Assembly: GCA_021847535.1 (NCBI GenBank)
Contig: JAJZMR010000069.1
Span: forward strand, 1 to 12,123
Source of the DNA: a bacterium
Lineage (GTDB): Bacteria; Babelota; Babeliae; Babelales; Babelaceae
Reading direction: 5' to 3'
Length of the DNA: 12,123 bases
The notes beneath the pieces were generated by a model that saw only the letters and a list, made by a program, of their open reading frames with translations, was not told the origin of the DNA and ran no database searches. Position numbers and translations under genes: made by a program. Shown in pieces: positions 1 to 8,571 of the stretch; position 1 is the stretch's first letter, and each line of letters starts with the position of its first letter.

Positions 1-2
1 AT

Positions 3-560
3 AATCCTGACTGGGAATATCGCCTATGGACTGAAAAAGAAATTGATGATTTTGGTTTAATAAATCGTGAGATGTATGATTTTGCCGTTAATTATGGTGA
101 GCGCTCTGATATCGCTCGTTATGAGATTTTACATCGTATTGGCGGTGTCTACGTTGATACAGATTATGAATGTTATAAGCCCTTTGATATGCTGCATCAA
201 GCGTATGATTTTTATATAGGTATCCAGCCACTTGATACCGGTCATGTTCAACTGGGTATTGGCATTATCGGCTCGCGGCCCGGACACCCTTTGCTCAAAC
301 AGGCGATTCATGAAATTGGTAAAAAACGTAAAACGGCCGAACCGGTGGTTTTGCGGACAGGTCCATTCTTTTTTACCCTCATTTTTCACCGTATGGCACC
401 TACATGCTCTGATGCTGTCATAGCGTTACCAAGCTCATTTTTGTACCCTATGGGGTATTATGAAAAGGTCGAAGAAAAAACAAAATGGGTCAAGTCAGAG
501 TCATACGCCAATCACCTGTGGGGTGGCAGCTGGCTTTCAGATGATGCATTTGTTAAGTAA
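3..560 (+). CDS. GT32-type glycosyltransferase with DXD motif (5' end outside window)
   Basis: The frame is open from the left edge, so the real start lies outside; the first ATG in the window (position 72) is inside the conserved region and is not the start. Visible are NPDWEYRLW, then SDIARYEIL and GGVYVDTDYE, and near the C-terminus NHLWGGSW. This is the order seen in the sugar-binding-region DXD family (Pfam Gly_transf_sug, OCH1/capsular type, GT32). The DTD at 156-164 would bind the metal and the nucleotide-sugar diphosphate. Members move a hexose from a nucleotide sugar to a glycan, lipid or, in some intracellular bacteria, a host protein; the acceptor here cannot be told. About 185 codons are present, probably missing only some tens of N-terminal residues. 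It converges with the MurE fusion gene, 26 bases apart. The family assignment is firm; the substrate is unknown. Confidence 0.85.
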   Translation, partial: NPDWEYRLWTEKEIDDFGLINREMYDFAVNYGERSDIARYEILHRIGGVYVDTDYECYKPFDMLHQAYDFYIGIQPLDTGHVQLGIGIIGSRPGHPLLKQAIHEIGKKRKTAEPVVLRTGPFFFTLIFHRMAPTCSDAVIALPSSFLYPMGYYEKVEEKTKWVKSESYANHLWGGSWLSDDAFVK

Positions 561-586
561 GTGTACATTTGCGCTGATTATTGTCT

Positions 587-3334
587 TTAAAGAGACCTTA
601 AAATCTCTCGTTCACTAAAATAAAATTTATTATCTTGGATAATTTGGTATTCATCAGGCCCTTTGCCCAGCAGTAGCACGATTGCGCCAGGGCCTGCCAG
701 GGAGTGTGCAAGCCGTATCGCCTTTTCTCTGTCAGGTTCTTTACAAATTTTTTGCACACAATCTTGAGGGATTCCCGCTACAATGTCCTCAATAATTCTT
801 TCAGGCTCTTCATGGCGCGGGTTGTCAGTTGTTAAAATAATATGGTCTGCATAGGTTGCCGCTATTGCACCCATTATAGGCCTTTTGACGACGTCTCTGT
901 TGCCTCCAGCACCAAAAACCACAATAAGTTGCGCCGTTTCCACCCGTAACGTTTCAAGGACTGCTTTCATAGATGATGGCGTATGTGCGTAATCGATATA
1001 AGCGGTAATATCTTGAGCTAATGAATATTTATTAAGTCTACCTGGGACACCAGCAAAAGTTGATATACTTTTTTGTGTAACATGTGCTGGGATATTAAGC
1101 GCGCGAGCTAGCATAAATGCCATATAAATATTATGCATATTAAAGGCGCCCAGCAAAGCACTATTTTCAAAGACTAATTGATCGATGTAGCAACTTATGC
1201 CAGCACGTGATACTCCGATAACTGTTATATCCTGCATACAACTGACCAAGGCATGGGCGCAGAGCGAACGGAGTGATCTAACAAGTGGTTCATCACCATT
1301 AAGAACCAGATGGCCATTCTTTTTTAATTGTTTAAGCAATGCCGCTTTTGCGGCAAAATAGTCTTGTTGCGTTGCATAAAATTCTCCATGTTCTCGGCTA
1401 AAATTAGTAAAAATAATTGCATCAAATTCAATGCCATGCACGCGAGACATTGATACTGCTTGAGCCGCCACTTCCATAACGACCCATTCAACTTCATCAT
1501 GTACACATTTGTCAAAAAACATATGGAGATAGTCTGGCTGCTGAGTTGTTAATTGCGTTACATAGGTCTGGTCGTTAATAGCATTGCTCACGGTACTGAG
1601 CCGTGCAGTTTTGTACCCGGCTGTTTTTAAGATATGCTCCATAATAAAGGTTGTCGTTGTTTTGCCTTTAGTACCTGTTATGCCAATAATTTTTAATTTT
1701 TTTGCAGGATGATTATAAGCGTGAGCGCTTAATTCGGCCAATACTTTGCGTGTATTTTCAACGCGATAGCTTGAGACCGTTTTTAATAATTGTTCTGTCG
1801 CAGGGTCCAGGGATGCATTGTGCTCAAGAACAATAGTCTCTGCACCATGATCTATCGCTTTCTGAATAAATTGTGCTCCATCAGACTTTGTGCCAGCAAT
1901 GGCAACAAAGGTTGACCCCGGGCCGACATTATCCGTGTGACACGCTACTTTAAATAGTGTCGGCATGTTGCCGCCACTCGTACTTCCGCTATGATTTTTT
2001 AGCCGTTGCTCGTCACATGTGACCGCTTTCATGATAAAAGGCATAAGTATACTTAACCCATAAAGATTCATAATAAGCATTCCGGCGTTTGCTATGTCCA
2101 CAGCAGACCAGACAACTGATACTGTGCCAAATATGCCGAAAAAAACCATGCAGGCGTATAAAAAAGCGTACCATGACGGGGAAATCGAGGGCATTAAAAA
2201 TGTCCAACATTCGCGACCAATATACGCATAAGCAACCAAGACACCTAAACCAAAAGAAATTGAAAGAAGCGTGACGACTATTTTTCCGTAGACCCCGAAC
2301 AGCGTTTCAAACGCTGCACTTGTTAAGGCCGTACTTGTAAGGCCACTTTCCCATACTCCACTTGCCACAAAAACAAGTAACATTAAGCAGCAGACCAGGT
2401 GATTACTAATCATTAATGAGGCCATCGACATAATGCCATTTTTGAAAGGTTCTTTGCCCCCTGTTGCGCCAAACAAGATACCAGATGTCCCTAACCCAAG
2501 TTCAGTTGCGCTGACTGAACGTGAAATGCCATAGCGCAATGCTGTTTGTATAGTATATCCCATGCCGGCACCAGCAACTGCCTTCCAAGTGAATGCATAC
2601 TCCATAATAAGAATAAGCGCCGGAAAAAGTGCATATGCATGGTACCATAACAGTGCCGCCATACAGCTGAAAAAAAGCCCAACCTTAAGGGGAATTATTT
2701 TATCAGAAAAGGCAATAACCCTTTGGGCGCCACCGTAAAGGATATAGGCAACAAGACCGAATAAACAAAATGCTATAAATGGCTTATTAAAACCAGTCAA
2801 ATGTTCTATGCTGATCGCCATTGAATTACATTGCATTGCACTGCCTGCCACAAAACTTGTTACTAGACAAAAAAAAGCGTATAGAACAGGTAGATATTTT
2901 TTGCCTGGTACAAGATGTAAATAGACCATCGGGCCACCACGAAAAACACCCTGTGAATTTTCATCCACAAACAGACTGCTTGCATACACTTCGACAAAAC
3001 GAAGCGCTATGCCAAAAAAACCAACGATAAAGATCCAAAAAGCTGCTCCTGGGCCACCAGAGGCAATTGCGGTTGCCATACCTGCAGCGCTTCCATTACC
3101 CAAACTAGCGCTGAGTGTGTTTAAGAAGGCCTGAAAAGGTGTTATATATGCGGTATTCTGTGGATTTTTTTCGGTAGGGTGAATTGCATAATACCAAGAT
3201 TTTTTGAAATAGCGTATTTGAATCCATCCCAATGCAATAGTCATGCAAATACTGACTATTAAAATACTCAAAACAAGAGGCCATCCCCATAAAAAGTCGC
3301 TGAGAGTGTTAATGGTGTTTTCTATCATGTACAT
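587..3334 (-). CDS. murE: AGCS sodium:amino-acid symporter fused in frame to MurE-type UDP-MurNAc-peptide ligase
   Basis: This is one uninterrupted frame of 915 residues. Residues 1 to about 436 are a complete AGCS (sodium:alanine/glycine symporter) domain, with SLGNGSAAGMATA, GGPGAAFW, RGGPMVYL and the last helix ending LYGLSILMPFIMK, closely parallel to the neighbouring 451-residue symporter. After a polar linker of about 20 residues (437-456, Ser/Gly/Asn-rich) comes MurE: DGAQFI, P-loop GITGTKGKTTT (551-561), the lysine expected to be carbamylated in DYFAAK (K663), GVPGR, DYAHTPSSM, GGNRD, DNPR (837-840, the meso-diaminopimelate signature) and GKGPDEYQ (890-897). MurE normally adds the third stem-peptide residue in the cytoplasm. 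The MurE half lacks roughly the first 20-25 residues of the family. The consensus EVSSH is EVAAQ, and a glutamine five residues further on is methionine. The start at 3334 is chosen for an AAGGAG 12 bases upstream; the longer frame from 3385 has no such support. The gene overlaps the upstream symporter by 26 bases. Domain identity is firm; whether the product stays one polypeptide is not proven. Confidence 0.88.
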   Translation of the reverse strand: MYMIENTINTLSDFLWGWPLVLSILIVSICMTIALGWIQIRYFKKSWYYAIHPTEKNPQNTAYITPFQAFLNTLSASLGNGSAAGMATAIASGGPGAAFWIFIVGFFGIALRFVEVYASSLFVDENSQGVFRGGPMVYLHLVPGKKYLPVLYAFFCLVTSFVAGSAMQCNSMAISIEHLTGFNKPFIAFCLFGLVAYILYGGAQRVIAFSDKIIPLKVGLFFSCMAALLWYHAYALFPALILIMEYAFTWKAVAGAGMGYTIQTALRYGISRSVSATELGLGTSGILFGATGGKEPFKNGIMSMASLMISNHLVCCLMLLVFVASGVWESGLTSTALTSAAFETLFGVYGKIVVTLLSISFGLGVLVAYAYIGRECWTFLMPSISPSWYAFLYACMVFFGIFGTVSVVWSAVDIANAGMLIMNLYGLSILMPFIMKAVTCDEQRLKNHSGSTSGGNMPTLFKVACHTDNVGPGSTFVAIAGTKSDGAQFIQKAIDHGAETIVLEHNASLDPATEQLLKTVSSYRVENTRKVLAELSAHAYNHPAKKLKIIGITGTKGKTTTTFIMEHILKTAGYKTARLSTVSNAINDQTYVTQLTTQQPDYLHMFFDKCVHDEVEWVVMEVAAQAVSMSRVHGIEFDAIIFTNFSREHGEFYATQQDYFAAKAALLKQLKKNGHLVLNGDEPLVRSLRSLCAHALVSCMQDITVIGVSRAGISCYIDQLVFENSALLGAFNMHNIYMAFMLARALNIPAHVTQKSISTFAGVPGRLNKYSLAQDITAYIDYAHTPSSMKAVLETLRVETAQLIVVFGAGGNRDVVKRPIMGAIAATYADHIILTTDNPRHEEPERIIEDIVAGIPQDCVQKICKEPDREKAIRLAHSLAGPGAIVLLLGKGPDEYQIIQDNKFYFSEREILRSL

Positions 3335-4664
3335 AAAAAGCGCGTACTCCTTTTTGAATTTCCGGCATGAGCCACATAAGGCCATACAAGTTACTTATAA
3401 TTAAGCCAGCATTTACAATATCGATGGCATTCCATAACATACGAACTTCAACCAGTGCTCCAAAAAAAGCCATGAGACAGAAAATTAATCCGTAAAGCGT
3501 AAGATATTTACCCTTGGTCAGAAAGGACCAACATTCGCGCCCTATATAGGCATAGGCTATGACACAACCAATCCCAAACATCATAGAGAGGCTATTAACG
3601 ATCCATCCACCGAATGATCCAAAAATGCTTTCGTAGGCAAAAATGGTCATGCGGATATCACTAAAACCGCTCTGCCATGCACCTGTTGCAACAAAAAGCC
3701 ACATAAGTAAAAAACAGACGCCAAAGTTGCTTATTGACGTTGTGGCCAATGAAATGATGCCGCTTTGAACAGGATTTTTTGTTCCTGTTGTTCCGAATAT
3801 GATTCCTGATGTGCCAAGCCCAACTTCTGTAGCATTAATTGAACGTGCTATTCCAAATCGAAGTGCGCTTTGCATCGTGTATCCCAAAAGAGCGCCTTTT
3901 GCCGCTTGTGCGGTAAAGGCGTACCTTGCCATAATAATAAATGCGTGCCAAAGCGATCCGACATTGTACAAGAGAGCAAAGAGAGTTGCTATAAAAAAAA
4001 GACCGACTTTGACAGGAGTTATCGCGTCAGATACGCGTATAATACGTTGAGCCCCACCAACCATGATATACAATAAAAATAAAAACATACAAAACGCGAG
4101 TACATAAATATTCCACGAGGTCATTTTTACCAAACCAAGTGCTATAGAATTACATTGCATTGCATTGCCTGTTACAAAAGTGAGCATGAGGCAGAAAAAT
4201 GCATAAAAATGAGGCAACCACGATCCGCCAGGCACTCGCTTAAGATAGACCATAGGTCCGCCCCGAATAAGACCCGTTGGTTGTTTTTCAGTAAATGCAG
4301 TGCTTGCATATACTTCTGCAAAACGGATAGCCATCAAAAAAAAGCCGAGAAAGAGAATCCAAAATCCAGCACCCGGACCACCGCTATATAAAGCAGTTGC
4401 CATACCAGCAAGGCTTCCGTTGCCTAAACTTGCACTCAGTGCATTCATAAAAGCCTGAAAGGGCGTTATATAATTTTCTTGGGCGGATGACGATGTGTCA
4501 GGCGTTAAAAGATATTTCCAGGAACGAAGAAAATAGCGAAACTGTATAGCACCAAAAGCTATGGTCATGATAAGACTGACCGCCATGATAGCTATAATCA
4601 GGGGCCAACCCCACAAAAATTCACCGCAGTTTTTTATAAAAACATCCAAATCTTGGTATGTCAT
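3309..4664 (-). CDS. AGCS-family sodium:alanine/glycine symporter (stand-alone copy)
   Basis: This is a 451-residue integral membrane protein of normal length for AGCS, with about ten to eleven hydrophobic segments. Family landmarks are TPFQAFMNALSASLGNGSLAGMATA (around 67-91, with GNGS at 81-84), GGPGAGFW (95-102), RGGPMVYL (134-141), GGAQRI (203-208) and ARSINATEVGLGTSG (273-287). AGCS proteins have a LeuT-like fold and import alanine, glycine or related small amino acids with sodium. The start is supported by AGGAG six bases upstream of the ATG. The protein is clearly a paralogue of the symporter half of the next gene, sharing motifs such as AMQCNS, AYAYIGRECW and NLYGL, so the pair arose by tandem duplication. 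It is first in a two-gene minus-strand operon and its 3' end carries the ribosome-binding site and start of the fusion gene. The substrate cannot be read from sequence. Confidence 0.92.
   Translation of the reverse strand: MTYQDLDVFIKNCGEFLWGWPLIIAIMAVSLIMTIAFGAIQFRYFLRSWKYLLTPDTSSSAQENYITPFQAFMNALSASLGNGSLAGMATALYSGGPGAGFWILFLGFFLMAIRFAEVYASTAFTEKQPTGLIRGGPMVYLKRVPGGSWLPHFYAFFCLMLTFVTGNAMQCNSIALGLVKMTSWNIYVLAFCMFLFLLYIMVGGAQRIIRVSDAITPVKVGLFFIATLFALLYNVGSLWHAFIIMARYAFTAQAAKGALLGYTMQSALRFGIARSINATEVGLGTSGIIFGTTGTKNPVQSGIISLATTSISNFGVCFLLMWLFVATGAWQSGFSDIRMTIFAYESIFGSFGGWIVNSLSMMFGIGCVIAYAYIGRECWSFLTKGKYLTLYGLIFCLMAFFGALVEVRMLWNAIDIVNAGLIISNLYGLMWLMPEIQKGVRAFYVHDRKHH
3347..3352 (-). promoter_or_regulatory. 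Ribosome-binding site of the AGCS-MurE fusion gene
   Basis: AAGGAG lies inside the coding end of the upstream symporter, 12 bases before the ATG at 3334 and 18 before the next in-frame ATG at 3328. It fixes the start of the fusion gene well downstream of the ATG at 3385. The overlap of start and stop regions (3309-3334) suggests translational coupling. The 12-base spacing is longer than ideal. Confidence 0.55.
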
Positions 4665-4670
4665 GAATAA

Positions 4671-4715
4671 CTCCTGTACCTCTTTCCCATAAGGGGGTGA
4701 ACCCTATAGAGGAGA
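4671..4715 (-). promoter_or_regulatory. AGCS leader: RBS with an upstream complementary (anti-SD) stretch
   Basis: On the minus strand the leader reads TCTCCTCT (4715-4708), then AGAGG (4683-4679) and the likely Shine-Dalgarno AGGAG (4675-4671), six bases before the ATG. CTCCT can pair with AGGAG and CCTCT with AGAGG, five base pairs either way, so the upstream segment could mask the ribosome-binding site. Short pairings like this arise by chance; the RBS itself is solid, the switch is conjecture. Confidence 0.35.
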
Positions 4716-4787
4716 TTTTAAAAATAATTAATCTTATCATTAAAGATACATAACTGGCGTAAATAGTGAAGTTTTGATCTGTTTATT

Positions 4788-4955
4788 TTAATATTCATAT
4801 ATTTTCATAGTATCTGGATCAAAGATATTCATAATAAGTTTATAATTTTACCCTGATTTTTTTGTAAAACCTCTTACCATAAATGATCCTGCCGGAAATG
4901 AGCTTGCCATTTGGTCATTTAAAAATGCATTTTTGTAGTTTTCAGCCCTTGGGCC
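4788..4955 (-). pseudogene. Decayed C-terminal remnant of a third copy of the neighbouring secreted-protein family
   Basis: Directly after the TAA of the secreted-protein gene at 4956-5561, and in the same reading frame, 56 codons resemble that gene's own C-terminal third. AENYKNAFL matches AQHYVNEFF, GFTKKSG matches GFTRAKDSAG, then an in-frame TAA interrupts, and the frame resumes with YKLIMNIFDPD and KIYEY before a final TAA, matching YNLHISIDPS and ELKIY. The copy also resembles the second family member (FKEVFL). It has no start codon of its own in a sensible place and no N-terminal part. The simplest reading is a tandem duplicate largely deleted and then interrupted by a stop codon. The alignment was made by eye. 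Confidence 0.6.
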
Positions 4956-5561
4956 TTAATAGATTTTGAGCTCCATGATTTTATCAGGTTTTGACGGATC
5001 GATTGAAATATGCAAATTATAAATTTTTTCGATATCTATATTTCCAGCAGAATCTTTTGCGCGGGTAAAGCCTTTTTCGATTGTATATATTTCTCCAAGC
5101 GAGTCTTTGCTTTTAAAAAATTCATTCACGTAATGCTGCGCAGATTGGCCCAAAATTTTATCATAAACAAGAAATGCTGTTACAAGAGTTCCGCCCGGAA
5201 ATGTCTCATTGATAGCGTCAAGGATGTTCCTGTTAAAATCTTTAATGGTTTGCGCGGTGGCATTTTCTACACGAGCATAATCGCTTTCTGCCATAACGAT
5301 AGCAATAAGGGGTTCATGGGTTGTTTGTGAGGGGATATTGTCGATTATAAAGCCGGTGATAAGAGCGGGACCTAGTCCATTTACTATGATATGACGATTC
5401 AATTGCCAGGCTGCTCGGGATTTTACAAGGGTTTGTATCTCCTGTGAGAGATCTTGGCTATTCACTACATCTGCGCTAATAATGCCTGGTGCATTAAGTG
5501 CAGTATGAGAGGAAAAAACAAGCACTGCAAGCAGATGAATTCTTATAAATCTATTTTTCAT
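4956..5561 (-). CDS. Secreted protein of unknown function (tandem family, member A)
   Basis: The 201-residue product begins with a Sec-type signal peptide: a basic start MKNRFIRIH, a hydrophobic core, and likely cleavage after ALNA (about residue 24). No known domain is recognised. The mature part carries a probable beta-strand core, ALITGFIID (66-74), PLIAIVMAES and TLVTAFLVYDK (125-135), then GFTRAKDS. The same layout occurs in the gene at 5731-6303 (SIITGYIA, TIFLIYRE), so the two are probably diverged paralogues. A cysteine-free mature sequence and export suggest a periplasmic or secreted soluble protein. The upstream RBS is weak. A remnant of a further copy follows its stop codon. Reality of the gene is well supported by the signal peptide and the paralogue; its function is unknown. 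Confidence 0.8.
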   Translation of the reverse strand: MKNRFIRIHLLAVLVFSSHTALNAPGIISADVVNSQDLSQEIQTLVKSRAAWQLNRHIIVNGLGPALITGFIIDNIPSQTTHEPLIAIVMAESDYARVENATAQTIKDFNRNILDAINETFPGGTLVTAFLVYDKILGQSAQHYVNEFFKSKDSLGEIYTIEKGFTRAKDSAGNIDIEKIYNLHISIDPSKPDKIMELKIY

Positions 5562-5602
5562 GAAGCATCTTTCGTTTTTAACTATATAAACTACTTTATA
5601 TT

Positions 5603-5632
5603 ATTGTATCATTATGTCTTTTTTTAAATCAA
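5603..5632 (-). promoter_or_regulatory. Candidate sigma70-type promoter for the secreted-protein gene A
   Basis: On the minus strand TTGATT (5632-5627) is followed after 18 bases by TACAAT (5608-5603), 4/6 and 5/6 matches to the -35 and -10 consensus, about 40 bases before the ATG at 5561. The surrounding DNA is very AT-rich, which raises the chance of a fortuitous match. Confidence 0.4.
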
Positions 5633-5730
5633 TATTTAGCTGCTTATTTTTTTTATTGCAATAGCCCGCTTTTTTGCGCGTGAATGATATGCCCATATTG
5701 TAAAAGTACAGGTTTTGATCCTGGCGGCCT

Positions 5731-6303
5731 TTAAGATATAGGCATGATGGTCAGGCTTGTTGTTTCATCTAGGACATTGATAGCCAAGCAATTTTTTTCC
5801 GATTCATTTTCTGAATCAGCAAAACTCTTGGTGAGCAATGTTATGTGGTTGTCGTTTGCTCGATTCATAGAGAGAAAAACTTCTTTAAATCTATCGATGG
5901 CTGCGCCTATATTTTCGCGATAAATAAGAAAAATCGTCTTTATAGCACGGTGTCGTCCAGGACGGCTGATTCTCCTGTTTATTTCGTTTTTATTTTCCCA
6001 ATTTGTTGCTATGGGTAATTCGAGCACTTCTGGTCCATTTTTTATAAAACCGATCTCGAATCTTTCTGGCATGTCACGAAATGATCGCGCATGAGCTATA
6101 TAGCCGGTAATAATACTGCTATTTAACGGGTACACAATCGCAAAATTATTTTGGTTCCAATCTTCATATGTATGATTTAATGGCGTTATTGAAGATGTTA
6201 AGTTTTCCGAATTCAGTATATTTAATAGGAATAGATCTATTTGGGAAATTGAGTAGACGCTCTGCATAAACATTAATGCAGCTGGCAATAATTGTATTTT
6301 CAT
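5731..6303 (-). CDS. Secreted protein of unknown function (tandem family, member B)
   Basis: The chosen start gives 190 residues, beginning MKIQLLPAALMFMQSVYS, a short signal peptide with cleavage likely near residues 18-20. A longer frame from 6348 would put the start codon inside an extended -10 promoter element, so the shorter start is preferred. No domain is recognised. The central part, SIITGYIAHA (about 63-72) and IKTIFLIYREN (about 121-131), followed by FKEVFL and LTKSFADS, lines up with member A (4956-5561) and with the tail remnant at 4788-4955. It is transcribed away from ruvX. The gene has no obvious Shine-Dalgarno. It is likely exported; its role is unknown. Confidence 0.75.
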   Translation of the reverse strand: MKIQLLPAALMFMQSVYSISQIDLFLLNILNSENLTSSITPLNHTYEDWNQNNFAIVYPLNSSIITGYIAHARSFRDMPERFEIGFIKNGPEVLELPIATNWENKNEINRRISRPGRHRAIKTIFLIYRENIGAAIDRFKEVFLSMNRANDNHITLLTKSFADSENESEKNCLAINVLDETTSLTIMPIS

Positions 6304-6346
6304 ATAAACTTTTGTAGAAAATATTTTTAAGTTTACAACATGTATC

Positions 6347-6376
6347 ATTATAGCAAGGATATCCTGATGTATACAA
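6347..6376 (-). promoter_or_regulatory. Extended -10 promoter for secreted-protein gene B, overlapping the ruvX start region
   Basis: The minus strand reads TGCTATAAT (6355-6347), a perfect extended -10 (TGn then TATAAT), with TTGTAT as a poor -35 at 6376-6371, 18 bases upstream. Transcription would begin near 6340, upstream of the ATG at 6303 but downstream of the ATG at 6348. The element overlaps the ruvX ribosome-binding site on the other strand. Confidence 0.5.
6355..6359 (+). promoter_or_regulatory. Ribosome-binding site that sets the ruvX start
   Basis: AAGGA lies seven bases before the ATG at 6367. The alternative in-frame ATG at 6340 has no such site and adds nine residues that precede the conserved RuvX start region. 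Confidence 0.6.
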
Positions 6377-6795
6377 GTAAAGAGGGCAAAATTGCGGCGT
6401 TAGATATGGGTGACCAGTGGGTGGGAATCGCTCTTTCTGATATAACGCGCACTCTTGCAAAGCCTTTTACAACTGTCCCTTTTGCAGATTACAAAAAGGA
6501 AGTTTCAAAGCTGATTGTAGAACAACGTCCCGTAACTATTATTATTGGGTATCCAAAAACTATGCGTGGAACAGAAAGTGAGCAGACTAAAAAAATTCTT
6601 ACACTTCACGCTGAGCTTGAAAAGAATTTTCCAGAGACTGTTTTTATTTTATGGGATGAGCGGCTGAGTAGTAAGCGGGCACAGACTGCAAGCCCAGCTC
6701 GAACAAGAGAAGAAAAATTAAAATCGCATGCTATTGCTGCAGCATTCATACTCGATTCTTATTTGGGGTATCTTGCAATGCAGAAAAATATGTAA
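6367..6795 (+). CDS. ruvX: RuvX/YqgF family RNase H-fold nuclease (putative Holliday junction resolvase / pre-16S rRNA nuclease)
   Basis: The 142-residue product has typical RuvX length. Family landmarks in order are AALDMGDQWVGIALSD (D13 is the first catalytic aspartate), TIIIGYPKTMRG (57-68), DERLSS (97-102) and AIAAAFILDSYL near the end. The family processes the 5' end of 16S rRNA and was also proposed to resolve Holliday junctions. The final acidic residue, usually an aspartate just before the xxAA motif, is a histidine here (H121 in KSHAIAAA), so catalysis may be altered. The start at 6367 is chosen for its Shine-Dalgarno. The gene stands alone on its strand: upstream is a divergent secreted-protein gene, and downstream 188 bases separate it from the zinc-ribbon gene. 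Confidence 0.88.
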   Translation: MYTSKEGKIAALDMGDQWVGIALSDITRTLAKPFTTVPFADYKKEVSKLIVEQRPVTIIIGYPKTMRGTESEQTKKILTLHAELEKNFPETVFILWDERLSSKRAQTASPARTREEKLKSHAIAAAFILDSYLGYLAMQKNM

Positions 6796-6931
6796 ATTCA
6801 GACAATATAAAAACTGTAAAATTCTATTTAAAAATGAACACTTTAGGTTTTTACAAATATATATGATTTAAAGGGTTTTAACCTGTTTTGTGCCTAAAAA
6901 TATAGAGGGTAAAAATAAAAAAATCTAATAA

Positions 6932-6961
6932 TTGACAAGGAAGCTCTCCTTCAAGTACGCT
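6932..6961 (+). promoter_or_regulatory. Candidate promoter for the zinc-ribbon/tsaB genes
   Basis: A perfect TTGACA (6932-6937) follows an A/T-rich tract (6909-6931) that could act as an UP element. The -10 partner is poor: TACGCT at 6956-6961 after an 18-base spacer matches only three of six positions. If used, the leader would be only about 16 bases and would exclude the hairpin described at 6945-6978. Confidence 0.35.
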
Positions 6962-6978
6962 GTCACCAAAGAAGGAGA
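6945..6978 (+). promoter_or_regulatory. Perfect 8-bp inverted repeat covering the zinc-ribbon RBS
   Basis: TCTCCTTC at 6945-6952 is the exact reverse complement of GAAGGAGA at 6971-6978, which contains the Shine-Dalgarno of the zinc-ribbon gene. In RNA the pairing would form an 8-bp stem with an 18-base loop and hide the RBS. A competing 5-bp hairpin, AAGGA 6937-6941 with TCCTT 6947-6951, would free it. This works only if transcription starts upstream of about 6937. Confidence 0.4.
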
Positions 6979-6983
6979 TGCGT

Positions 6984-7163
6984 ATGAAGTGTTCAAAATG
7001 TAATGGACTTATGGTCGTCCAATCGTTTTTCGATCATTTTTTAAACTTTGATGGCTGGAAATGCTTGAACTGTGGTAAAATAATGGTCAAGAAGGAAAAA
7101 ACTATCGAGTTTGACGCCTTTAGTATCTTTTACCAACAACAAAAGAATAATAACCGAAATTAA
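6984..7163 (+). CDS. Small zinc-ribbon protein (CxxC...CxxCG)
   Basis: The 59-residue product contains CSKC (C3, C6) and, 20 residues later, CLNCG (C27, C30), a standard four-cysteine zinc-ribbon. DGWKCLNCGK resembles small bacterial zinc-ribbon proteins of unknown role. Such ribbons bind zinc and usually mediate nucleic-acid or protein contacts. The ATG at 6984 is preferred over that at 6978 because AAGGAG (6972-6977) stands six bases before it and abuts the other. It lies five bases upstream of tsaB and is probably co-transcribed with it. The Lys/Asn/Gln-rich tail is likely disordered. The fold is well supported; the function is unknown. Confidence 0.8.
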   Translation: MKCSKCNGLMVVQSFFDHFLNFDGWKCLNCGKIMVKKEKTIEFDAFSIFYQQQKNNNRN

Positions 7164-7168
7164 TACAT

Positions 7169-7828
7169 ATGTCATCTTCTCAATTTTATTTGATCATACA
7201 TAGTGGTTACCAATCAGTTTTTATTGGTCTTTATAATCGTACTCAAGCTGTGAGTATTCAGACGCTCGACAAAAAAATGGTGAGTGGCTTTTTGTTTATA
7301 ACACTTTTAGATATTTTGAAGTGCCACGAATTAATCTTTGCAGATCTTTCTTTTATAGGTGTGCACGCTGGTCCGGCACCATTTACCACGTTGCGGGTTG
7401 GGGTTACAACGAGCAATGGCATCGCTTTTGCCGCTGGATTGCCGCTGGTTGCCGTTAATGGGTTGGAGGTTTTAAGTAATCTATATCCAGAATATACCGT
7501 GCTCCTTAACGCTTTTTGTGACGATGTGTATGTGGGTCAAGGGTCATCATTGTCATGCCAAAATATTGATGCCTTTTTACACAACCAGGCATCATCCATT
7601 ACACAACCGGTAACGTATATAGGCAATGGCGTCGCTTTGCATCATGAAAAAATAAAGCATGTACTTGGGGATAGAGCAGTCTTGCTGCATGATTACCCCT
7701 ATGAAGCATCAATTGATATGATTGCGCAGTATGCATATAGGCAATGGTCTGCTGGCGCGAACAGCGTGAAGCAGGTAATGCCTGTCTACATGAAGGAATA
7801 TTCAGCAAAAATGGCGACAAATCGTTAA
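7169..7828 (+). CDS. tsaB: TsaB (YeaZ) subunit of the tRNA t6A-modification complex
   Basis: The 219-residue ASKHA-fold protein shows the TsaB signature GPAPFTTLRVG (68-78; usual form GPGSFTGLRIG), preceded by ADLSFIGVHA and followed by NGIAFAAGLPLVAVNGLEVL. TsaB is a non-catalytic scaffold that pairs with TsaD and TsaE to put threonylcarbamoyl on A37 of ANN-decoding tRNAs in the cytoplasm. The N-terminal DTS of the family is HSG here (11-13). The C-terminal half is more divergent. It follows the zinc-ribbon gene by five bases without an obvious RBS, so translation may depend on that gene. Its stop codon overlaps that of convergent rsmE. Confidence 0.85.
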   Translation: MSSSQFYLIIHSGYQSVFIGLYNRTQAVSIQTLDKKMVSGFLFITLLDILKCHELIFADLSFIGVHAGPAPFTTLRVGVTTSNGIAFAAGLPLVAVNGLEVLSNLYPEYTVLLNAFCDDVYVGQGSSLSCQNIDAFLHNQASSITQPVTYIGNGVALHHEKIKHVLGDRAVLLHDYPYEASIDMIAQYAYRQWSAGANSVKQVMPVYMKEYSAKMATNR

Positions 7829-8571
7829 ACGCGGACGATGCCCATTAAAAGGCTGGCGGCATCACGAGCCCGCAGTACCGTATTAGTCAATTTTACTGGC
7901 GTAAACGGTGGGTTGAGTAATATTTTTTCTTCAGGGGTAAAATCCCCTTCTGGCCCTACTATAAGAAGGTAGCTCTCTTGTTCAGCGATTAATGCACGAT
8001 TTTTCAAAATAGGGCCGCCTGCTATATCGCACCATAATTTTTTATAATTTTTGTAAGCAGTTTCTACCGATAGAATAGCTTTTTGTAGGGCAACAGGTTG
8101 TTCGATCTGTGGTTGGTAAAATTGCTTTGATTGCTCGCTGGCGGCCTGGGCGATGCGGTAAAGGCGTTGATGATCTTTTTGTGTATATATTTTTCTACTT
8201 TTTTCACTGATAAGTAATTGAACGGTTTTTACGCCATATACAACAGCCATGTAGATAACCTCTTCAAGAGCGTCCCGCTCAAGCAGGGGAAGCATTAATG
8301 TAATCGATGGGCATGGTATAGCAATGGGCAATCGTTCATTGAGTATACAGGTTATAGTTTTTTTATGAATATCAGTAATCGTAAGCGATAAGCTCTGGAT
8401 TTTGTCAAAAAAAATAATCGATTCACCAGTTTTTAATCGTAATACGCTCGTGATGCGATGTATCAGTTCGGGAGAGATTATAGTTATTGTTTTCGCTGAA
8501 TCATGAACAGCGATATCTTGGGCTGAATCGAAAAAAAGAGAAAATTCGTGGCCATGATGCAGCGGTGCCAT
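7825..8571 (-). CDS. rsmE: RsmE, 16S rRNA (uracil-1498-N3)-methyltransferase
   Basis: The 248-residue product is of normal length for RsmE, a SPOUT-class methyltransferase that uses S-adenosylmethionine to methylate U1498 in the small ribosomal subunit. Landmarks are HRITSVLRLKTGE (38-50, PUA-like N-terminal part), EEVIYMAVVYGVKTVQLL, ASEQSKQFYQP (144-154), IVGPEGDFTPEE (204-215) and the knot region KLTNTVLRARDAA (227-239; usual ILRTETA). The knot motif has diverged but its register is kept. The gene begins four bases after the stop of a small secreted-protein gene and lacks its own clear RBS, so the two are probably coupled. It converges with tsaB, sharing TTAA at the stops. Confidence 0.9.
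   Translation of the reverse strand: MAPLHHGHEFSLFFDSAQDIAVHDSAKTITIISPELIHRITSVLRLKTGESIIFFDKIQSLSLTITDIHKKTITCILNERLPIAIPCPSITLMLPLLERDALEEVIYMAVVYGVKTVQLLISEKSRKIYTQKDHQRLYRIAQAASEQSKQFYQPQIEQPVALQKAILSVETAYKNYKKLWCDIAGGPILKNRALIAEQESYLLIVGPEGDFTPEEKILLNPPFTPVKLTNTVLRARDAASLLMGIVRV

Follow-up and report, generated by a model that had tools for sequence, protein, structure and literature searches.

A symporter and a MurE ligase encoded in one frame

Does a bacterium make an amino-acid importer and the ligase that adds an amino acid to its peptidoglycan precursor as one protein, and what might such a protein do? The question is raised by a 12,123-nt contig (the whole of which is hereafter called the window) of a Dependentiae genome from the class Babeliae, available as a 765,576-base draft in 100 contigs that is 88.6% complete. 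The open-frame check of the window revealed a minus-strand frame of 932 residues without a stop between positions 587 and 3385 (Table 1). Besides the in-frame ATG at 3385, a Met lies further 3′ at position 3334; it is the start in most fused relatives in the alignment and equals the upper coordinate given by a first-pass annotation of the locus. Pfam placed an Na_Ala_symp domain (PF01235) at residues 73-464 of the 932-residue frame (235.2 bits against a cut-off of 24) and the N-terminal, middle and C-terminal Mur ligase domains between residues 486 and 909. The first-pass annotation had described, without naming a strand, a complete symporter of the AGCS family and a "nearly complete" MurE in one frame. 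The frame and the symporter were confirmed, but the MurE half proved complete, because in related genomes the unfused MurEs start at the junction or close to it, which rules out an N-terminal truncation. We regard the AGCS-MurE fusion as genuine: one Dependentiae genus has a protein built of both domains.

Table 1 Features of the window in and around the fusion gene, with the evidence for each
Feature	Coordinates	Strand	Basis
AGCS-MurE fusion gene	587..3334	minus	open frame, Pfam, NCBIfam, alignment of fused relatives
MurE domain, meso-DAP type (DNPR motif), three-domain ligase	590..1966	minus	Pfam, NCBIfam, motif, fold
ATG where free MurEs begin	1964..1966	minus	alignment with free MurEs and fused relatives
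End of last AGCS helix and linker	1964..2014	minus	alignments, model pLDDT
AGCS-like sodium symporter domain (PF01235), clade M	1994..3169	minus	Pfam, AGCS tree, fold match 6cse
Tandem unfused clade-M AGCS	3309..4664	minus	open frame, Pfam, AGCS tree
RuvX, TsaB-like and RsmE genes	6340..8571		Pfam and neighbourhood comparison; conserved murE neighbours in much of the class

Conservation and origin of the fusion

A protein database search, from which the best 100 matches of 7,994 scored candidates were reported, returned, from three contigs, the longest of 84,840 bases, a shorter form of the window's protein with a later start (P0001, 885 residues). Among the 100 matches listed, P0002-P0009 were full-length fusions with 69-73% identity, P0003 being identical over MurE to the protein of genome G002; P0010 (640 residues, 60% identity) was fused and stopped inside MurE, P0011 was a full-length fusion at 44-45% identity, and most of the others were lone MurE or lone AGCS proteins. 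AGCS or murE loci were also fetched from 92 of the 101 genomes of the class, and a single AGCS-MurE frame was present in three genomes of the genus (the window's, G001 and G002) and in none of the 89 others. The architecture whose recurrence in related genomes had been proposed as a check was thus found in G001, G002, P0002-P0009 and P0011. An assembly error, or a stop lost in this assembly and nowhere else, might be suspected of a draft in 100 contigs; given the three contigs carrying P0001 and the homologous fusions in other genomes and metagenomes, we regard it as extremely improbable, and a chance frame is refuted by the same proteins.

A stop codon between the domains in close relatives had been named as evidence against a fusion. 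None was present in G001 and G002, and the other genera examined do have one. At ten loci of other genera in which the AGCS and MurE frames agree, the two are separated by one stop (six loci) or two (four), which rules out a fusion spread over many genera; elsewhere in the class, AGCS and murE overlap or abut in different frames. Since AGCS lies on the same strand just upstream of murE in most relatives missing DapF (see below), we infer that loss of the stop between these co-directional neighbours gave rise to the fusion. When the ten fused rows were constrained to one clade, p-AU was 0.639; a single origin is therefore not rejected, and two origins, with P0011 arising separately, are without support.

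The linker is variable among the aligned fused proteins and both its flanks are conserved. The Ser/Gly/Asn linker singled out by the first-pass annotation is present in the window and particular to it, relatives carrying other short, variable linkers. At the ancestral MurE start, exactly, the window has an ATG, and G001 and G002 a TTG, raising the possibility that MurE is also, or mainly, translated from this internal start, the two proteins then being partly separate in the cell. The same position is Leu in eight of the ten proteins P0002-P0011 (Met in P0006 and Pro in P0009; DNA was at hand for G001 and G002 only), and the best Shine-Dalgarno matches at the three internal starts with DNA (window, G001 and G002) span 3, 3 and 0 bases. 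The latter point is weak, since 51 of 86 free MurE loci likewise score at most three bases. On balance, separate translation of MurE appears unlikely.

Predicted structure and membrane tethering

The full-length protein was modelled with AlphaFold2 (920 residues, 103 aligned sequences), and both folds were intact in the prediction, with a mean pLDDT of 93.9 and a pTM of 0.73. The pLDDT fell below 50 at model residues 258-263 and 455-459, the latter corresponding to the linker (about positions 1973-1987). The C-terminus of AGCS-type carriers is cytoplasmic, given their LeuT-type fold, and MurE would therefore lie on the cytoplasmic side. Anchoring of MurE to the membrane through the symporter, as the first-pass annotation had anticipated, is thus well supported by homology and by the model: the symporter would sit in the membrane, and a short, flexible linker would connect its cytoplasmic C-terminus to MurE.

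The MurE half

The MurE half matched the NCBIfam models NF001126 (meso-DAP MurE; 419.1 bits, cut-off 373) and TIGR01085 (403.7 bits, cut-off 257.3). It carries the DNPR motif, which we take to be the mark of the meso-DAP type and which is found in 85 of the 89 MurEs of the class. By family models and motif, the MurE half is a meso-DAP type ligase, its activity being predicted. The meso-DAP-adding enzymes of Escherichia coli (1e8c) and Mycobacterium (8g6p) share with it the three domains and the DNPR motif, and were matched by Foldseek with TMt values of 0.82 and 0.79, respectively; unlike either of them, the fusion's MurE is joined to a transporter. MurF and MraY were found in the fusion-bearing genome itself, so the wall pathway would go on past MurE.

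MurE is likewise joined to another wall protein in MurE-MurF fusions (8f5d; NCBIfam NF008896; P0041). Neither a MurF domain nor a second ligase was found in the AGCS-MurE chain, NF008896 matching its MurE part only. Another database protein, P0058 (1,207 residues), carries PF03717, PF00905 and PF03793, presumably penicillin-binding-protein and PASTA domains, joined to Mur ligase domains. Whereas the partner is a wall enzyme in the MurE-MurF fusions and in P0058, it is an amino-acid importer in the AGCS-MurE protein. No description of such a protein, or of a Mur ligase anchored in the membrane by an importer, was found in the literature searched; a JGI annotation of P0002 mentions both its halves.

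The symporter half belongs to a distinct AGCS clade

The symporter half fell narrowly under the NCBIfam agcS model TIGR00835 (271.0 bits, cut-off 272.65) and is therefore referred to as AGCS-like. Its sole PDB sequence match was AgcS (6cse/6csf; 28% identity), titled a sodium/alanine symporter with L-alanine bound; 6cse matched the predicted model with a TMt of 0.92 and an rmsd of 2.4. No ligase is fused to AgcS, unlike the AGCS-MurE protein. In a tree of 101 AGCS rows, the murE-linked sequences formed one supported clade of 72 rows, hereafter clade M, to which tandem copies, two database proteins and some copies not linked to murE also belong. A separate clade held 20 further rows from Dependentiae, and one more (G070) stood on a long branch; these 21 rows, drawn from 20 fetched regions rather than from every such copy in the class, were 26-31% identical to the window's AGCS. 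Residues were counted with the long-branch row left out. Clade M retains Gln170 (71/71 rows) and Glu276 (72/72) of AgcS. In contrast, it has Asn in place of Thr78 in all 71 rows with a residue there, Tyr in place of Trp370 in 57 of 72 and a changed FSNEAG motif, and mostly deviates from AgcS at Thr78, Asn80, Phe273, Ser274, Asn275, Thr366 and Trp370. We take Thr78, Gln170, Glu276 and Trp370 to line the substrate site. The family (TC 2.A.25) is reported to take substrates beyond alanine and glycine, GutA of Campylobacter importing glutamine (PMC12795558).

A second, unfused clade-M gene stands in tandem with the fusion gene, which its 3′ end overlaps by 26 nt. Its product is about 52% identical to the fused AGCS and scores 255.9 bits on TIGR00835 (cut-off 272.65); each of the three genomes searched in the genus has the tandem copy.

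AGCS mostly accompanies murE where DapF is missing

AGCS and murE were scored as linked if the stop of the nearest upstream same-strand AGCS gene lay no more than 3.5 kb from the first MurE residue in the alignment. The murE locus was analysable in 89 of the 101 genomes, 69 DapF-negative and 20 DapF-positive. Of the 69 genomes without DapF, 61 had AGCS linked upstream of murE; none of the 20 with DapF did, six of their loci having less than 3.5 kb of upstream sequence (1.1-3.2 kb). Fifty of the linked genomes had the two genes within 100 nt and 11 farther apart, the latter including the three fused genomes, which the script entered through their tandem copy; without these three, 58 of 66 DapF-negative genomes were linked, 50 of them within 100 nt. 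Restricting the comparison to genomes at least 90% complete gave 47/52 against 0/13. The eight unlinked DapF-negative genomes were G009-G011, G022, G040 (at a contig edge), G076, G088 and G089. As a control, 79 MurE loci from outside the class, listed among contig-scan matches together with one Dependentiae locus, were inspected, 63 of the 80 having at least 3 kb on both sides; AGCS occurred anywhere in the fetched stretch at two of the 79, once more than 10 kb away.

A plain two-by-two test of DapF against linkage gives a Fisher value of 8e-14 that ignores kinship: DapF changes only twice on the MurE tree, leaving two independent contrasts and no significance. In the second of these (G004 and G005), the sequence upstream of murE (5.8 and 2.5 kb) contained no ruvX, and murE itself therefore seems to have moved there. 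The neighbourhood is otherwise syntenic, a tsaB-like gene lying near murE in 61 and ruvX in 57 of the 69 DapF-negative genomes, and the adjacency of AGCS and murE may thus be inherited gene order. Since ruvX also stands beside an AGCS-less murE in DapF-positive G070 and in DapF-negative G040, G076, G088 and G089, the gain or loss of AGCS apparently took place at a single point of an ancient gene block.

G009-G011, which form one genus, have MurE and neither AGCS nor DapF. A different transporter beside murE was sought in them and discarded as an explanation, the neighbours being a threonyl-type tRNA synthetase in G011, a CNNM/CorC-type membrane protein in G010 and, on the opposite strand, an ankyrin protein in G009. 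Conversely, G003, G078 and G079 (95, 82 and 87% complete) retain clade-M AGCS and gave no MurE match over cut-off. Among individual loci, the gene between AGCS and murE encodes a Cas12f1-like TNB domain protein in G006 (L039:8597-9961) and a WD40 protein in G044 (L077:6980-8914). In G001, murE is followed by a gene for a membrane H+-pyrophosphatase (L054:3919-5910), and the homology cluster of that gene occurs near murE in 39 genomes.

Supply of wall amino acids in the class

DapB was absent from all 101 genomes and DapA had no match over cut-off in any of them, the two families being matched in 11 and 14, respectively, of 14 control genomes. By these searches, therefore, the usual path to DAP is missing from every genome of the class. 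DapF was found in 24 of the 101. A CBS/CysK-like PLP enzyme gene adjoins dapF in 19 of 20 fetched loci (L229-L248) and, by coordinates, lies next to it in 21 of the 24 DapF genomes; ten proteins of the dapF neighbourhood scanned with Pfam were for the most part this enzyme. An Na+/H+ antiporter-family gene near dapF (PF03553, scanned in G070; L230:4079-5707) has homologues in L232, L235 and L242, making four of 20 loci. In Fusobacterium, a PLP enzyme is reported to make wall lanthionine in place of DAP, and the DapF homologue to act mainly as a histidine racemase (PMC11602996). That Dependentiae might build lanthionine into their wall, with the CBS/CysK-like enzyme and DapF making it, is no more than a lead. 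PALP-family matches, in a family that includes other enzymes, were found in 95 of 101 genomes; the PALP-less genomes at 90% completeness or above, G003 and G034, are both also without a MurE match over cut-off, and G053 (94%), G007 and G078 have PALP without such a match.

Alanine racemase was detected in 54 of the 61 linked and in three of the 20 DapF-positive genomes; the seven linked genomes without a match include G037, at 99% completeness. Glutamate racemase was over cut-off in just 15 of 101 genomes, though MurE is nearly universal, a rarity that makes the supply of D-amino acids, D-glutamate among them, puzzling in this class. Members of Dependentiae are known to infect amoebae and a flagellate-type host. 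A wall is reported absent from Babela massiliensis (PMC4378268) and the mur path complete in Chromulinavorax (PMC6561590); the string "diaminopimel" was not found in the main texts of these two reports or of the Babelota papers.

What the fusion may do

Intracellular bacteria that have a wall but do not make DAP need some source of the third residue. The first-pass annotation had suggested that an imported amino acid serves wall synthesis. The class-wide lack of DapA and DapB matches over cut-off in 101 genomes and, at 89 loci, the placing of AGCS beside murE only where DapF is absent favour this suggestion; phylogeny, synteny and the clade-M genes kept without a MurE match weaken it. The contrast in linkage between DapF-negative and DapF-positive genomes suggests that clade M feeds MurE. 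We put about even trust in a reading in which the stop between closely spaced, co-directional clade-M AGCS and murE genes was lost, MurE became tethered to the membrane, and sodium-driven uptake supplies a wall amino acid from the host or from ingested prey. Since DapA and DapB are missing throughout the class, and the linked genomes lack DapF as well, the most likely cargo would be the residue of DAP type, either meso-DAP itself or a similar compound such as lanthionine, which MurE attaches at the third position. The two domains might pass it on directly, though the reading does not require such channelling. Of the readings considered, a link between the two halves through a substrate is the best, though not an established one.

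A serious rival, to which we grant a sizeable probability short of even, is that the symporter brings in alanine, or some other small, neutral amino acid, to meet general needs, that its adjacency to murE is inherited, and that losing the stop was almost neutral and did no more than tether MurE. AgcS, with its bound alanine, as the sole PDB sequence match, the syntenic murE block with its tsaB-like gene and ruvX, the three genomes that keep clade M without a MurE match, and the way alanine racemase tracks linkage all fit an alanine importer. They do so less well once the seven linked genomes without alanine racemase, the mostly altered seven positions from Thr78 to Trp370, and the retention of the fusion down to 44-45% identity are considered. 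If uptake for the wall is nevertheless the function, a transporter linked to MurE through its gene, and covalently so in one genus, would show where the third residue comes from and make the question testable, and a Mur ligase would be held at the membrane by an importer. A bolder form of this wall-supply reading is tentative, and we lean against it as a whole: clade-M symporters would import meso-DAP or meso-lanthionine from host or prey, having replaced the CBS/CysK-like and DapF route in half of the Dependentiae tree, and one genus would couple import and ligation in a single membrane protein.

Other features of the window

Neither an Rfam match at the gathering threshold nor a tRNA was present in the window. 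Over positions 1-6400, promoter-like sites numbered 22 against 19.7 in shuffled sequences, and terminator-like sites three against 5.9. Two minus-strand genes, at 4956-5561 and 5731-6348, encode proteins of about 200 residues that have no Pfam match and, by eye, carry N-terminal signal sequences.
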